Assembly (NCBI RefSeq): GCF_025602895.1
Contig: NW_026516324.1
Location: forward strand, 1-64,000
Length of the DNA: 64,000 nucleotides
Source of the DNA: Polychytrium aggregatum
Taxonomy: Eukaryota > Chytridiomycota > Chytridiomycetes > Polychytriales
Direction: 5' to 3'
The translations under genes were made by a program, and so were the position numbers. The notes under the pieces are model-generated. The model saw nothing but the letters and a program-made list of their open reading frames with translations, did not search any database and was not told where the DNA came from. Shown here piece by piece: positions 481-54,335 of this stretch. Each line of letters starts with the position of its first letter. Within the stretch, counting starts at the first letter, position 1.

Positions 481-3478
481 ATGAGGCAACTGGACAAGGC
501 AAATGCAGTCGATGAGGAGCTACACGACCTCAAGCTGCGGTTTGAGCTGCTAGGTTCGAGACACTGCTGCACTTTCGTCTCCGTGGCTGCCGCCGTCTCG
601 TCGGCTACCAAGTAACCCACGCACTTGACTGCTCCCGCTCGTGCTGACGGCTTCCCACGCCCTGCCTGCCTGCCTGCTCACTTGTTCCGAATCGGCTGGC
701 GCAGAGGGTGACAGAAAGGCGTACTATGAAACCAGCCAGTGGGCCATTCGGCAGAACAAGGAGGAGATCAGCACCATGCGGATGCAGAACCGCGAGCTCT
801 GTGATGCCATAGCGAAGCTGAAGAAGGTCAGTTCCTCCGAGCCGCAGAGATGTATATCCGCGCGCCGACCGCTCGGCTCGACACCGCACCCCCCCCGCAG
901 CGAGAGGGTTCCACATTCCGTACTGCACGTCCCCACATGCAGCACCATATTTCACATTTCACATTTCGCATTTCACATGCCACGGCCGCTCCGTTGTTTC
1001 TGACATACCACTGGCGCTCCAGAATGAAATCGAAAACAACTGCAATCGACTAACAATGACGGAACTAGAAAAGTTTGACCACCGAATATGCGAAATCCAT
1101 AAAAAATACGACGAGCTGCAGGCCGAGGCCAGGATGAAGGAGGAGCGTCTGCGGGAAATGCGGGACCAGATGGCCGACCTGCGTCGAGAGGCTGAGATCG
1201 TCAAGTCCAATCTGAGAGACTCGCCGCAGGCAAAGGTGCGGTTGATTGATGAACTTGGTCGTTGGTCATCGACGATGCAGTCGCTATGGAGCGGCGACAA
1301 GTGGATAACGATGATTGATGTCCCGCAGGAGATTCGCATGCTCGAGAACCGCTTGGACAAAGCCATGATCAAATACAACGAAGCACAGTCGATCCGCAAG
1401 ACATACGAGCAGATCGTCAAGCGACTGCAGGACGAGCGCCTCACCTTTGATAATCAGCTCGCCAACTTTGAAAAGCTGCTCAAGGCCAAGAAGCAGGACG
1501 CCTTTGAGCTCGAGATGATGTCGCGCGATGCCAATCATGCAAAGGAGGTCGCCAAGGCAAGTTGTCGACCGGCTTGACGGGAGAGACTGATGAAACAGCA
1601 CTCGGTCATGCGAGCTGGGTGCTCCGCCGACCGAAACGCCAGGAGGCACCGTTTGGATCGGTGCAGCAATCGCGCTTGCGACACCGATGCATTGTGGCTA
1701 GTGATGCCGCAATGTCATGAGCGCACGGTGTTGGAACTGAAGAGACGGTTTTAATCGGGTTTGATTTGATACTCTCCAGGCCGAGCTTGCTCGATTCGAA
1801 CAGCAGATCGGCGAGGAGAGGAAGCAGCGCGAGAAGGAGCTCCAGTCTCGGCGTGAGCTGGTGAAGCAAAAGCTGGAAGTGAACGACAAACTGGATCGCA
1901 AGGTAAGATGCTGCAGCCACATGGAAGGGGTGAATGAGGATGTGCCGAGCAGGCAAAGACTCGCCCACATGGGCGCCGACGCGGCCCCAGAAGACCTAAT
2001 GTACAGCACGCCGAATTGATATGCGATTTGCACGGGAGACTTACACTCACAATGCGCACCGAAAGGCGTTCCTCATAGACGAGCCAACCGATCTCGGCAA
2101 CAACGCAGACTCGTCCAAGGACCAGTACGACGAGGTCAAAGAACGCAAGCTCACAGAGTACGAGGAGACGATGCGGCTGATCAAAGAGGCGACCGGCGTC
2201 TCGGACATCAACGAGGTGATTGCAAAGTTCCAATCCCAAGGCGACACCAACAAGCACCTGACCCAGCTGAGGATGAGCAAAGAAGGCCGCATCGAGGAGC
2301 TCAGAGTCAAGAAGCAGCAGGTGCTCGGAGAGTTTGAGGAACTAAAGTACTCTGGCGAGGCCAAGCATGCCCACGCCAAGCACCTCATCAAGGAGTTTGA
2401 GGACCACCTGCGAGAAGCGCAAGAGCGGTGCGCAGATGCAAAGTCAAAGTACGAGCGCGTGGCAAAGCTGCTCAACAACACAAAGTCCGGCATCCAGCAT
2501 CTCTTTGACAAGCTGGATGTCATTGCAAAGGTATGAGCCGAGATGAGCCGGCGAGGGCTTTCCACCGGCGCCCGATTGCATGATGCGCTGTGAGCAGACT
2601 CGCTGGGTTGGCGCATACTCCAGCAATCGGTACCTTGGATTGATGCTGGCTCGATTGTCTACAGGTCGAAAAGTCAGAGAAGATCCCAATGTCAGACGAA
2701 ACCGTGGGCACGATTCTGGAGGCGTGCATTCAAAAACTGGAGACACTCGCCACAGGCATGCAGGACAAGGAGCTACCCGAGGTATGGAGGGCCAGGACCA
2801 CTGGTTGATGTTTTGTTGGTAGCGGCATGGCACATTGCTTCAGCTCATGGCGGATAGGTTCGCGAACGCAGTAGTCGATGGTGACGGAGGGTTCTGGCAC
2901 AAGAGTTTGGCAGAGTGCGGCCAAGTGTGCATGGCTTGTGATGGCGACGCTGACTGAACCGAATGAAACTCGACAAAGCCTGCAACTACGCCGCCGGCAC
3001 AACAACAGCCCGGAGAGGTTATCAGCATCCTGCAGGTCAACCAGTCGACCTTGCCAGTGTACAACACCCGAGTCAAGATGCGTCCGGTGGAGTTCGAAGA
3101 GGAGGTTGCCGAAGGTACGGTGGAGCATTCGCGATCGGATGTGTCTGGGTGGACTGCAACGCAATCCAGTGCGACAGAATACCTGTTGCACTCGATTGTA
3201 GACAATGGGACTGGAACCATGTTCGACGAGCAAGACATACATTGGTGTTTCGTCGATACAAGGAGACATCAGCTGAAATGTGGTTGTCCCTCTCGCCGCA
3301 CGCTGACTGGTTGTGTGTTACCACCATCCCAGACGAAGAGAACGACGACGAGTACGGCGAGGTTCCAGACCGCGAGGCCATCAAGAAGCACACCACACAG
3401 ATGCTGAACGCCAGACTGAAGACCAAGCAGGCCAAGAAAGTCAAGAAGAAGAAGAGTTCGTCAAAAGACGACGAGTAG
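481..3478 (+). CDS. ODAD3: ODAD3/CCDC151-like outer dynein arm docking complex protein (multi-exon)
   Basis: Coiled-coil protein that in animals anchors outer dynein arms to the ciliary doublet microtubules and is required for their assembly. The first exon starts at ATG 481 and is joined, through an intron ending near 705, to an exon reading GDRKAYYETSQW, a hallmark stretch of the CCDC151 family. Further exons (about 1024-1234, 1330-1556, 1780-1901, 2066-2530, 2665-2781, 3035-3115, 3331-3478) encode almost continuous heptad-rich helix. The C-terminus has the family YNTR motif (YNTRVKMRPVEFEEEV), then an acidic patch, then a lysine-rich tail ending at the TAG at 3476. The intron at 1557-1779 appears to use a GC donor. 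The next gene downstream, on the same strand, is also axonemal (CCDC146). What is seen is the sequence resemblance and coiled coil; the dynein docking role is transferred from the family. Exon limits are by eye. Confidence 0.87.
1557..1779 (+). other. GC-AG intron in ODAD3
   Basis: The exon must end with the Val-Ala-Lys codons at 1556 and resume at Ala-Glu-Leu at 1780 to keep the coiled-coil frame. The donor at that point is AAG|GCAAGT, the standard GC-AG consensus, and the acceptor is CTCTCCAG. Using the nearest GT (two bases on) would break the frame. Confidence 0.65.
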
Positions 3479-28325: not shown

Positions 28326-30926
28326 ATGGAGAATAAAAGCAAGGGCAAGGTAAATGGTAGCTTGCAGGACGCCTGGTCGCCCACGTCTGCGACCGGCCGA
28401 ATAGCCGGCCATCCCATGGATCGTGTGCCTGCCCTCCCGCGGATACTGCAGATGCTCGGTGCTTGGTAACGAGGAGCACCAGAATAGTCGCTGTGCTGCA
28501 GCGAGCCATCAGGGTGCAATGTGTTCTCGCGTGCAGCAGACAGTTGCGCTTGATGTCGTCATCTCAAGTGCTGCAGCTAGTCGACACGCTCGCTAACGTT
28601 CGCTAATATCCGTGGGCATTCGCTGATGCCTCCGACACGTCCAGAATGAGCCGGTGAAAGTGTCCAATACCTACTTCGATGAGTTGCTGGAGCTGAGCGA
28701 TGGCGAAAACGAAGGTGGAAGCCGAGGATCGCCACCGTCAGGTATTTGCTGCTGTTCTTGCACGAAGCCCGCTCCAGGGCAAGTCGAGTTCAAGATCCAC
28801 GAATCTTCATGAACATTTTGCATTCAAGGAGGGCCTATCGCGACACCTGCCATCGTCGCCATCGCCATCGCCATCGCCGCGCTGACAGGTCGACTTTTGC
28901 ATCAGAGGAGAAATCAAGAGGGGACAGTCCTCCGTCTGCGACCATGTCGGATTCCGAAGAAGAATATGACCACGACGACGACGACGAGCTCTACATCAGC
29001 GACGACAACATCATGGTGAGACTCGAGCGCGGCATCGCACCGGCTTGATATCGCGACAGACAGCCCAATGGGTTGTCGCCTCTGGGTCTCGATGGGCTGC
29101 TCAAGTCAGCGCACCGCATCCGTACTCATAAAGGCTCATTCACGCCAGAGCACCGGAATGGCATCCAAGTCGAGGAAAGATGGGATGGAAATGGGCAAGT
29201 ACTCTTCCCGAGCCGACGGAAAGCCTCAGGATCTTGTCGCGAAAGAGAACAAACCCAAAGCTGGAGGGGGTCGTGATCCTGGCAAGAAGAGGCACAAACC
29301 AAAGGAGCACGGTGATCCGGAAGGAAAACCCAAAGGCCCTCATGGGAGGAAGCAAGAGCACGACGACGACGAGGATGAGGACGAAGACGACGATGACGAT
29401 GAAGACGGCGACGAGGAAGACAACGAAGATAACGACGACAGCGAGAACGACGATCACGATGATGAGCGCGACGATGACGACGACGATCTTGTTGAAGGCT
29501 CCGCACAGAACAAAGACAAGAAGTAAGCCGAGGCTGGTACTTGCCTCTTGATGCTGAGCGTTGTGTTGAGTGTTGTGTGTTAAGTGTTGAGTGTTGTGTG
29601 TTGAGTGTTGAGTGTTGAGTGTTGAATGTTGTGTGTTGAGTGTTGAGTGCTGGGAAGTGAGCAGATATACCGACTGACAGCCCCTTCCTCACAACTCCTT
29701 CCTGACGGCTTACTCGATGCCGAAATTGCTGCATTCCCTTCGAACTGGGCGTGGAGTAGCTCTGGGATGTATGCCTCATCGGCATTCAAGGATCTGGCCG
29801 TCGGAGACGACATCAAGGAGCTGTTCCAGTACATCTCGCGGTACAAGCCGCAAGATATGGACATTGACACACTGCTCAAGCCATTCATCCCGGACTACAT
29901 CCCGTCGATCGGGGACATTGACGCCTTCATCAAGGTGTGTCTGGAGACCGAGTGCTGCACCGGGGGGACTGGACTGGATCGGCAGCAATCGCGGTTTGGT
30001 AACGCATGACGATATTCAGATCCCGCGGCCAGATCACAAGCCCGAAGCGCTGGGGTTGATGCTCCTGGATGAGCCCAACGGGAGGCAATCCGATCCCACA
30101 GGTCCGTGCATATCCGACGAGCCGAGCAGTCCAGCATGCAGCCTCATTGTCAAGAGAGTGCCGCCCGCCCTGCCGCCAGAGCACACAGCAGTCACGGAGT
30201 ATTGGGGGCTGGGGGTCGAGGCGAGACATGACCATGACCGTCTCGCACTGACACTTGCCTTCTGAACAGTGCTGGACCTCACTCTGAGGGCCGTGACCAA
30301 ATCCAGCGCACCCATCCCTCAGATCGTCCGGTCGATTGATGCAGAGACGCTGCGCACAAAGCCCAAGCGCATCGACGCCTGGATCGAGAGCGTCAAGGAG
30401 CTGCATGCCGCAAAGCCGCCTCTGTCTGTGGCGTATTCGAAGCGGATGCCGGACATTGAGGACCTGATGCAAGTTTGGCCTCCCGAGATCGAGGCAGCCG
30501 TCAGCGAGGTAGGCTTCTCGGCGGCACCGTTCATCCTGGCACAGCATCCTCTCGCATTGCGGTCATGCCTCGGTCGGCCCCCGGCAGGGCACTGCGTCTC
30601 GCTGATGGTACTCTCTCCCGCAGATCGTCTTGCCCAGCCCCGCCATCGACCTGGCGCTCCCCCTCTATGTGCAGCTCATCAACACAGTCTTGGATATCCC
30701 TGTCAGCACAGTCTCCTCCAAGCCTGGACCGCAGAGACCGTCGCAGCCGCCGCCGCAGAGCCACGCGATGCTGTCCGCCGGCGCTCAGACAATCGAGTCC
30801 CTGCATGTACTATTTACCCTGTACTCGGAGTTCAAGAACTCGCACCATTTCAAGGCGCTGCAGCGCATGTCAGGCGATTCTCAGATGGAGCTCGGGCTGG
30901 AGGGCGTGGCTCCGGCGGCCAAGTAG
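28326..30926 (+). CDS. IFT46: Intraflagellar transport protein 46 (IFT-B subunit, multi-exon)
   Basis: Core IFT-B subunit that carries outer dynein arms and other cargo along flagella. Exons as I read them: 28326-28349, 28645-28741, 28916-29015, 29134-29525, 29760-29934, 30021-30101, 30270-30508 and 30624-30926. The N-terminal half is disordered, with a very acidic Asp/Glu run encoded at about 29358-29500, as in animal IFT46. The conserved core follows: IKELFQYISRYKPQDMDID, LKPFIPDYIPSIGDIDAF, PRPDHKPEALGLMLLDEPN, IDAWIESVKELHAAKPP, MPDIEDLMQVWPPE and SLHVLFTLYSEFKNSHHF. All are hallmark segments in the right order. Relative to human IFT46 there is an insertion of about 35 residues (Pro/Gln/Ser-rich) between the DIPV and IQSLHVLF-type motifs. 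It is the third flagellar gene in the window. Confidence 0.93.
29553..29652 (+). repeat. TGTTGAG/TGTTGTG tandem repeat in an IFT46 intron
   Basis: About thirteen near-identical 7-base units (TTGAGTG with TTGTGTG variants) fill the middle of the intron between the acidic exon and the core domain. Confidence 0.9.
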
Positions 30927-31213
30927 CTAGTAGCGCAATCGTGAGCGGGGCGGACGGCCCAATGCATTGCAAGTATGCTGATCGTGCACACCAACAAAGA
31001 GATTATGCCGAGTGTGCATTGAACCGCCAGTAGATGCGAAGCGCCGCTCAATCCATTGCCATCATAGCCAATACACACACACACCACTGAAAGTGATGGC
31101 GAGATCGGTCTGTGCTTGTAAGGAGATGGTGTATTGAGAATACCAGACGAGGATCGGCCAAAGACCAGCTCGTCGCGCGGATGACGAAAGACGTGCGATA
31201 GCCACAAGCAGGT

Positions 31214-39292: not shown

Positions 39293-40743
39293 ATGCTCGT
39301 CAACGCCGGCTTTGCTCTCACGGTCTTCCTCGCCCTCTCGGGTGCTGTCGAAGGCGCCCGCACCAAGAAGGGCGGCAAGTGGTCCAAGTATATGAAGTCT
39401 CTCGACAAGGTCATCGGCTCTGCCGAAAACACCGCCCGCATGTCGACCGAGGCCAAGAGCCTGTACAAGGCCTATGTCGCCAACAAGAAGGATGCCAGCT
39501 TCCAGAGCCTCGTCTCTCAGGTCAAGAACAAGACCGCCTCTAGCAAGGTTGCCGCCAAGGTGGTTGTCAACGACCAGTCCGTCAAGAACATTGCCACCCA
39601 AGTCTTTGTAAGTACTGGAGCAAATCAATGCTGAGGGGAACCGGCGAGAGGAAGCAACGGCGAGGGATCGACCCAATGGGGTCATGTCCAGCACTTGTAT
39701 CAGTCTCGTTCCCACGGAGGTGGCGCATACACATGCCGCGCTCATTCCCATGGATCCATCACTCACGTCTGTCCATGTAATCAACCCCATTCCCATACCA
39801 CAGGGAAGCAACCCCTCGGCCAAGCACATCGCTGCCACCCGCGCCGCCATGCTGCCCTCTTCGTGGGACTCCCGTAACTCGGGCTGGGTCTCCGCCGTCA
39901 AGGACCAGGGCCAGTGCGGCAGCTGCGTTGCCTTCTCCTCGGCCGCCACCGTCGAGAGTACCTTCCTGAGCCAGGGCACCACCATTGACGTCTCCGAGGC
40001 CGACATCTTCTTCTGCCTTGCCGCTGGCCAGGCCCAGTGCAGCACTGGCTGGGAGCCCGATGCGGCCGCTAGCGCCATCTCCCAGAACGGTGTCGTCACC
40101 GAGGACTGCTTCCCCTACACTGCCGGCACCGGCCAGGACCAGCAGTGCAACGACAGCAACTGCCAGCGCACCGGCGGCATCTCCGAGGCCTCGTTCGGCA
40201 GCGTCGACGAGATCAAGCAGCACATCATGACCTACGGCGCCGTCTTCACTGGCTTCACTGTCTACAGCGACTTTGACAACTGCTGCACCAACAACCAGAT
40301 CTACATGCAGCAGTCCAACCAGCAGGTTGGTGGCCACGCCGTCTCGATCGTCGGCTGGGACGAGGGCAACCAGGCCTGGCTCTGCAAGAACTCCTGGACG
40401 GCCTCCTGGGGTACCGATGGCTTGTTCTGGATCGGATACGGCCAGTGCGGCATCGGTGCCACCAGCCAGACCTTTGGCTTTGCCGTCTCGGGCAACAACC
40501 CCAACCCTCCTTCTCCCGGTCCTCCCGGCCCTCCCTCGCCCCCTCCCCCTCCTCCTCCCTCGGGCGACTGCACCAACGCTGACCCCTACAGCATTGTCTG
40601 CATCGACTCGAGCGACTTTTGGTACTGCGACCCCGGTAAGTAGCAATTCTATTGAAACAAGCTGCTGTGACTGACCCGATCGACAAGCACACCACTCCGA
40701 TCCATGACCCCCGACCTGTAAGCCGACTTGATCTGACCAACTT

Positions 40744-52986: not shown

Positions 52987-54020
52987 ATGACTGCCGACCA
53001 ACAGCAGCAGCAGCAGCAGCACAGCTGGCAGCACATCACCGCTGCCGTCAAGCGGGATCTCGAGCCGTACGGCATTGATCTGATTGTCCCGTTCCCCGTC
53101 GAGCGCTACAACGAAGACGAGCACGCAGGCAAATATCCGCTGCCCGGCTCGACCAACCCGGCCAACACCTCGACCCTGGCCATCCTCATCGGCAACCACA
53201 AGCGCATGTGGGAGCCGTTCCTGGAATACCTCGAGGAAGACCCAGCCACGCACCTGGACAACAGCGCCCATCCGATCAACGACTTTGTACACGACCTGCT
53301 CCACAACCGCTTGAGCAAAGAGGACATTCCCGAGTTCAAGTACCGCTACCCGCACGACGAGGGCGACCGCTTCACGCACTTTCAGCGGCTGGCCCACATT
53401 GCTGGCCTGGCGTATTTCAACAGGGTATGGCTCTGTCGCTGATGGCGTGGTGTGCTGATGTCGGGGCTGATGTCGGGATGTGCTGATGTCGGGATGTGCT
53501 GATCGGATGCGGACGATCCTCGATGCCCCAACAAAATCAACTGATCGATATGTCCGATGCTTGTACGTGCCCAACCCCTTCCATGCACTCATCCATGCAC
53601 TCGTCCATGCACTCATCCATACTCATCCATGTATGCCAGACTTGCTATCTCTGCGTCTCGCCCATCTACGGGCCCTGGCTCGCTCTCCGGGCCGTCCTGG
53701 TGTTCCCTGGCATCCAGGGCCCTCCCCACCAGCCCGACTACGAGACCGTTCCGAACCCATATCCCGAGTTTGACGACACGCTGCTGCAAAAGACAAACGA
53801 GATGATGGAGCGGTACAAGGCCAACTACGAGGCCGGGTTCAAGCTCGACTGGCGCAAGCTCGTCGAGATCCGGACGCTCGTCGGCGGGTTCCTGAGCGCC
53901 GAAGATCAGAGCCTTCGCAAGTACACTGAGGAACAGCTGACGTACCACTACACCAAGAGCAAAGCTGTTCTCACCGAGGCCCTGGAGCGCCGTCGCCTGG
54001 AGCGCCTCGGATCTGCATAG
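52987..54020 (+). CDS. MMACHC: MMACHC (CblC)-like cobalamin-processing protein
   Basis: Homologue of the cytosolic protein that removes the upper ligand of vitamin B12 (decyanation or glutathione-dependent dealkylation) before delivery to methionine synthase and methylmalonyl-CoA mutase. Two exons: 52987-53424 and about 53639-54020. After a short poly-Gln start, the protein shows PYGIDLIVPFPVERYNE and YPLPGSTN. Then follow HPINDFVHDLL, RYPHDEGDRFTHFQRLAHIA with GLAYFNR, equivalent to the animal AAHVAGAAYYYQR stretch. Next come CVSPIYGPWLALRAVLVFPG, equivalent to [20 protein letters not shown] with the glutathione-contacting Arg retained, and DWRKL ... RKYTEEQLTYHY, equivalent to HWRDW ... RYSEEQKAYF. 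It is shorter than human MMACHC at the C-terminus (no Pro-rich tail). About 13 residues before the Cys segment are absent and could reflect a mis-joined intron. Presence implies B12 use in this fungus. Confidence 0.88.
53437..53508 (+). repeat. TGCTGATGTCGGGATG tandem repeat in the MMACHC intron
   Basis: About four imperfect copies of a roughly 16-base unit. Further along the same intron, ATGCACTCATCC/GTCC units repeat four times (about 53582-53632). Confidence 0.8.
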
Positions 54021-54258: not shown

Positions 54259-54335
54259 ATCTGGATGGGTCTGGATGGGTCTGGATGGGTCTGGATGGGT
54301 CTGGATGGGTCTGGGTGGATCTGGATGGTCTGGAT
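54259..54335 (+). repeat. TCTGGATGGG decamer tandem repeat
   Basis: About six or seven copies of TCTGGATGGG, perfect at first and then diverging. Confidence 0.92.

Follow-up and report, generated by a model that had tools for sequence, protein, structure and literature searches.

The locus at positions 52987 to 54020 of the window (the whole 64,000-nucleotide stretch that was analysed) raises the question of whether a fungus may encode a working cobalamin-processing protein of the MMACHC (CblC) family, and which metabolic route such a protein would serve. The gene consists of the following parts:

52987..53424, plus strand: MMACHC/CblC homologue, exon 1 (146 codons)
53425..53639, plus strand: intron, GTATGG...CCAG (215 nt, GT-AG), carrying a 16-bp tandem unit
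53640..54020, plus strand: MMACHC/CblC homologue, exon 2 and stop codon, with the conserved core CVSPIYGPWLALRAVLVFPGI followed by a divergent C-terminus

Gene model and family membership

The gene begins with an ATG at 52987 and ends with a TAG at 54018-54020, and its two exons splice to a protein of 272 aa. Among joins enumerated between donors (GT or GC, at about 53381-53480) and AG acceptors at about 53480-53700, four keep the product open to this TAG; one of the four, which removes 53425-53639, is GT-AG, and the other three have GC donors and the identical acceptor. The initial annotation had credited the gene with an intron of its own, and the 215-nt GT-AG intron bears this out. A microexon or two-intron model that would supply human residues 130-142 was sought within this intron and is not possible, because the sole AG of the intron is its last. 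Downstream of the gene, at 54260-54310, there is a short tandem run of TCTGGATGGG units.

A profile search agreed with the proposed assignment to the MMACHC family by a narrow margin: Pfam PF16690 (MMACHC) matched residues 34-174 of the spliced protein at 29.1 bits against a cut-off of 27 (E 8.9e-07), and was the only family listed by Pfam for it. A PDB sequence search gave 13 rows, headed by six MMACHC/CblC chains (E 1.6e-05 to 1.1e-04). A single designed protein (E 1e-04) was interspersed with these chains, and the highest-ranking of five lectins (E 0.002) came directly after them; the one remaining row was an MMACHC-like chain (E 0.03). NCBIfam, a library built for bacteria and archaea, gave no match to the homologue. 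When PF16690 was searched genome-wide, nothing reached threshold in the organism's own genome or in any of 14 control genomes, and we take the miss to have arisen because the exons were scored apart.

Pairwise comparison with human MMACHC gave 54 identities in 190 positions by BLASTP (28%, E 3e-12 for this single comparison) and 72 identities in 212 aligned positions by MAFFT. Fifteen human residues were checked in the MAFFT alignment, and six of them are identical (D104, H122, R161, R201, Y215 and R230) while nine are changed (R73, L75, D77, D80, Y129, G147, W203, R206 and P227); we take H122, Y129, G147 and W203 to be notable positions of the human protein. The available text of PMC10740964 names 11 of the 15 around the human glutathione pocket. 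Like human MMACHC (e.g. PDB 3SOM), the fungal protein has a core with counterparts of H122 and R161 and an identical order of motifs. Human residues 130-142 (a 13-residue gap) and the human C-terminal tail have no equivalent in the fungal protein, whose C-terminal third cannot be aligned with confidence, the alignment score being reached by 41 of 1000 shuffles and so lying within chance. The glutathione-pocket arginine R161 is kept as R163; R206 aligns on I223, with R224 adjacent, and R230 aligns on R265, both within the chance-level C-terminal alignment. As far as sequence comparison goes, the core can be assigned soundly to MMACHC, and the section of the glutathione pocket that lies in the C-terminus is not placed with confidence.

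These differences have a bearing on function, since the protein could be a relative with the CblC fold in which glutathione-dependent dealkylation has been lost; its role would then be limited to binding, reducing or storing cobalamin, with another protein carrying out the dealkylation. The low profile score (29.1 against 27), the divergent C-terminus in which two of the three glutathione-pocket arginines are not confidently placed, the nine changes among 15 checked positions and the 13-residue gap are all consistent with such a loss, and Orlowska et al. (PMC8085122), in the part available, speculate that other proteins substitute in some fungi that are without CblC. However, the counterparts of R161 and H122 are kept, the downstream partners searched for (MetH, the mutase, MMADHC, MMAA and MMAB) are all present, and a search with the spliced protein as query found no second, different MMACHC-like gene in the organism's own genome that might take over the reaction. 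We therefore regard a loss of dealkylation as unlikely. Taking the gene together with its partners, we consider it highly probable on sequence evidence that the window gene is a fungal MMACHC orthologue, which would work in a route delivering scavenged cobalamin to MetH and methylmalonyl-CoA mutase. MMACHC is the protein that receives cobalamin on entry and strips it of its upper ligand.

Partner genes and the proposed cobalamin route

The initial annotation had predicted that B12-dependent enzymes and their accessory proteins would be encoded elsewhere in the genome, and MetH, the mutase, MMADHC, MMAA and MMAB were all recovered from the assembly. Profile searches of the organism's own genome returned four MetH rows, on contigs C236 and C386, and MetH has five Pfam domains (homocysteine, pterin, both B12-binding domains and activation). 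The main MetH exon scored 1445.7 bits against full-length 9ssp (1265 aa), 399.2 and 389.9 bits against full-length 8ssc and 8g3h, and 584.8 bits against the shorter 3bul; the activation domain only was compared in 2o2k (363.2 bits) and 1msk (265.6 bits). We take 9ssp and 2o2k to be human, 8ssc, 8g3h and 3bul to be bacterial, and 1msk to come from E. coli. The NCBIfam bacterial methionine synthase model scored 1518.4 on MetH against a cut-off of 1497. Methylmalonyl-CoA mutase gave 16 rows, eight each on C106 and C358, and its B12-binding domain keeps the D-x-H-x-x-G motif. There were nine rows for MMAA/MeaB (four on each of C410 and C412, plus one on C143), four for MMAB (C112 and C151) and two for MMADHC (C386 and C236).

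The spliced MMADHC (CblD) protein matched PF10229 at 78.5 bits against a cut-off of 27; the top-ranking CblD structure gave E 1e-17 and shares GCCKV-RH--WGT with it. Cys261 and Cys262 of human MMADHC are described in the available text of PMC13376404 as the residues that load cobalamin onto methionine synthase. Full splice models were made for MMACHC and MMADHC only, the mutase, MMAA and MMAB being viewed as individual exons. Some pieces of the latter three contain in-frame stops, which lay at the edge of the piece in all four that were translated, as expected of intron read-through or of a natural stop; the frames of MetH and MMADHC are interrupted by introns only. A methylmalonyl-CoA epimerase candidate was limited to a single 35-aa piece, found on C6 and on C334; with a cut-off of 27, it scored 25 bits in the genome search and 27.7 when scanned alone. 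Because these scores are near the cut-off, and the generic Glyoxalase family scored above its own (29.0 against 20.6), the epimerase is unproven.

From these genes we propose a route in which cobalamin or a precursor would be taken up from other microbes and the MMACHC homologue, by analogy with its family, would strip off the cyano or alkyl group to leave cob(II)alamin; according to PMC13376404, in the part available, MMACHC takes part in forming cob(II)alamin. MMADHC, in which the Cys-Cys cobalt-binding motif of the human protein is kept, would accept the cobalamin and hand it on. One branch would load MetH for methionine synthesis. The other would run through MMAB and MMAA, whose roles as adenosyltransferase and GTPase are given in the available text of PMC8085122, to methylmalonyl-CoA mutase and the breakdown of propionate. 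The assembly contains genes for MMACHC, MMADHC, MetH, MMAB, MMAA and the mutase.

The suggestion that B12 is scavenged also fared well. Searches of the organism's own genome found no candidate for class II ribonucleotide reductase (1 of 14 control genomes gave one) or for CbiC, a marker of corrin synthesis (7 of 14 control genomes), and it is because of these results that we consider B12 to be probably scavenged. The B12-independent methionine synthase MetE was found once, on C24, with both MetE domains across two frames. Because MetE is present as well, the MetH branch is probably facultative; the organism may therefore use B12 without depending on it for methionine, for which B12 may not be essential.

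A genome search with the spliced protein revealed a second copy of the MMACHC homologue at C113:590982-592031, on a 757-kb contig. Its exons differ from those of the window by one base, resulting in the conservative change D127E, and its intron is 231 nt, one 16-bp unit longer than the 215 nt of the window copy; translation through the intron runs into stop codons in either copy. The window contig and C113 share two matching segments (99.5% and 99.2%) over about 9.9 kb, and between C386 and C236 the match is 99.2% and 98.2%. Because every B12 gene searched for occurs on two contigs, we infer that many loci are present as two haplotypes in the 64.7-Mb assembly. In the genome search MetE and Lys2 each came up on one contig, and the single-copy MetE (C24:112500-122400) is perhaps a collapsed haplotype.

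The presence of MetE would also be expected if MetE had replaced the cobalamin pathway and the MMACHC homologue were a decaying remnant of it. We find this improbable: the two MMACHC copies are intact and one conservative change apart, MetH and MMADHC have no interruption other than introns, the stops in the mutase, MMAA and MMAB pieces lie at a piece edge in the four examined, and the mutase branch is not one that MetE replaces.

Organism and genomic surroundings

Two matches elsewhere in the window bear on the identity of the organism:

30266-31030, plus strand: IFT46 C-terminal domain, flagellar (74.4 bits against 22.2)
822-1574, plus strand: ODAD1 coiled-coil match, flagellar (24.1 bits, below the cut-off of 27)

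Because both are matches to flagellar genes, the organism probably makes flagellated cells. Lys2 marks fungi, and elsewhere in the genome a Lys2-type alpha-aminoadipate reductase is represented on C57 by five collinear pieces of TIGR03443 that span profile positions 101-1379 of 1390. Each piece alone falls below the whole-protein cut-off of 1030, as did the matches that TIGR03443 gave in 12 of 14 control genomes; what counts is therefore the collinear span. Together, IFT46 in the window and the Lys2-type gene suggest a zoosporic fungus. Outside the Lys2 gene, 14 further stretches (on C57, C90, C91, C135, C235, C238, C335, C366, C369, C373 and C386) matched the C-terminal part of the Lys2 profile (mostly 970-1187) at 152-163 bits; we assume that they form a reductase-domain protein family, perhaps NRPS-like or fatty acyl reductases. 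The window also contains a papain-family cysteine protease (Peptidase_C1) at 39612-40640 on the plus strand (127.5 bits).

The flanks of the MMACHC homologue had been called fungal-style, which is confirmed only in part: the upstream neighbour is SCO1, and two downstream frames searched with Pfam gave no match. The gene had also been said to match the local base composition and not to be a bacterial contaminant, and both statements are supported: GC content is 0.598 over the gene span against 0.582 over the window, and the intron, the second copy and the eukaryotic genes of the window argue against contamination. Although the Pfam score is low, and bacterial sequences had been misassigned to fungi in a published survey (PMC8085122, available part), a contaminant or horizontally acquired bacterial gene is scarcely credible for an intron-bearing gene with a second copy on the 757-kb contig C113, a base composition matching its window, eIF3a, an MCM helicase and IFT46 in the same window, and no relative among 594 pattern stretches in a scan of prokaryote genome contigs (which reaches close relatives only).

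Published fungal B12 genes and the MetH-MMADHC pair

The initial annotation had described an MMACHC homologue in a fungus as unexpected, a view that is out of date because B12 genes have been reported across non-Dikarya fungi (PMC8085122). According to the available part of that study (Orlowska et al. 2021), B12-dependent enzymes occur in 50 of 59 non-Dikarya fungi and B12 genes in all non-Dikarya fungal phyla; CblC is known from 23 proteins in 20 species, MetH was found in 53, CblD in 47, and 45 genomes have both MetE and MetH. All nine fungi reported there to be without any B12-dependent enzyme belong to the Chytridiomycota. A later text (PMC10406608, available part), citing the work of Orlowska et al., places cobalamin-related genes among the families lost in early fungal evolution.

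Likened by description, the window protein resembles the fungal CblC of Orlowska et al. 2021 in Pfam family, kingdom and kinds of partner gene. Six of the eight families of that paper are clear here and the epimerase is weak, similar to the sets reported for Blastocladiomycota and for Chytridiales and Monoblepharidiales. The Blastocladiomycota have the whole set, whereas here there was no match to class II ribonucleotide reductase; the Chytridiales and Monoblepharidiales have six of the eight families, and nine other Chytridiomycota have none (PMC8085122, available part). In view of these published surveys, our finding is a correct further example of what has been published, ordinary in kind and not overturning present knowledge. 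Another zoosporic fungus is thereby credited with most of a route for B12 use, and CblC, CblD and MetH are brought together in one fungal genome that keeps MetE. The organism would suit a direct test of MetH versus MetE use and of B12 acquisition by fungi.

MetH and MMADHC are head-to-head neighbours on C386 (179268-186000) and on C236 (3800-12600), in identical order on both contigs, and the remaining B12 genes lie on different contigs. The assumed starts on C386 are:

C386:180215, minus strand: assumed MMADHC start
C386:181665, plus strand: assumed MetH start

These starts are about 1.45 kb apart, and no gene was identified between them when the gap was viewed without a profile library. By a rough, post hoc estimate (about 28 pairs from eight genes among some 10,000), the chance of one such neighbour pair is about 0.5%. 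We found no report of MetH-MMADHC adjacency in the open-licence literature, among the matches listed, or in the available part of PMC8085122. It is conceivable, and in our judgement doubtful, that the pair is functional, co-regulated and kept by selection in zoosporic fungi, and that the divergent MMACHC would be a fungal hand-over variant leaning on MMADHC and not a glutathione-dependent CblC. Beyond MMADHC, a TTGCTG run near 174760-174940 on C386 is longer than its counterpart near 206-261 on C236.
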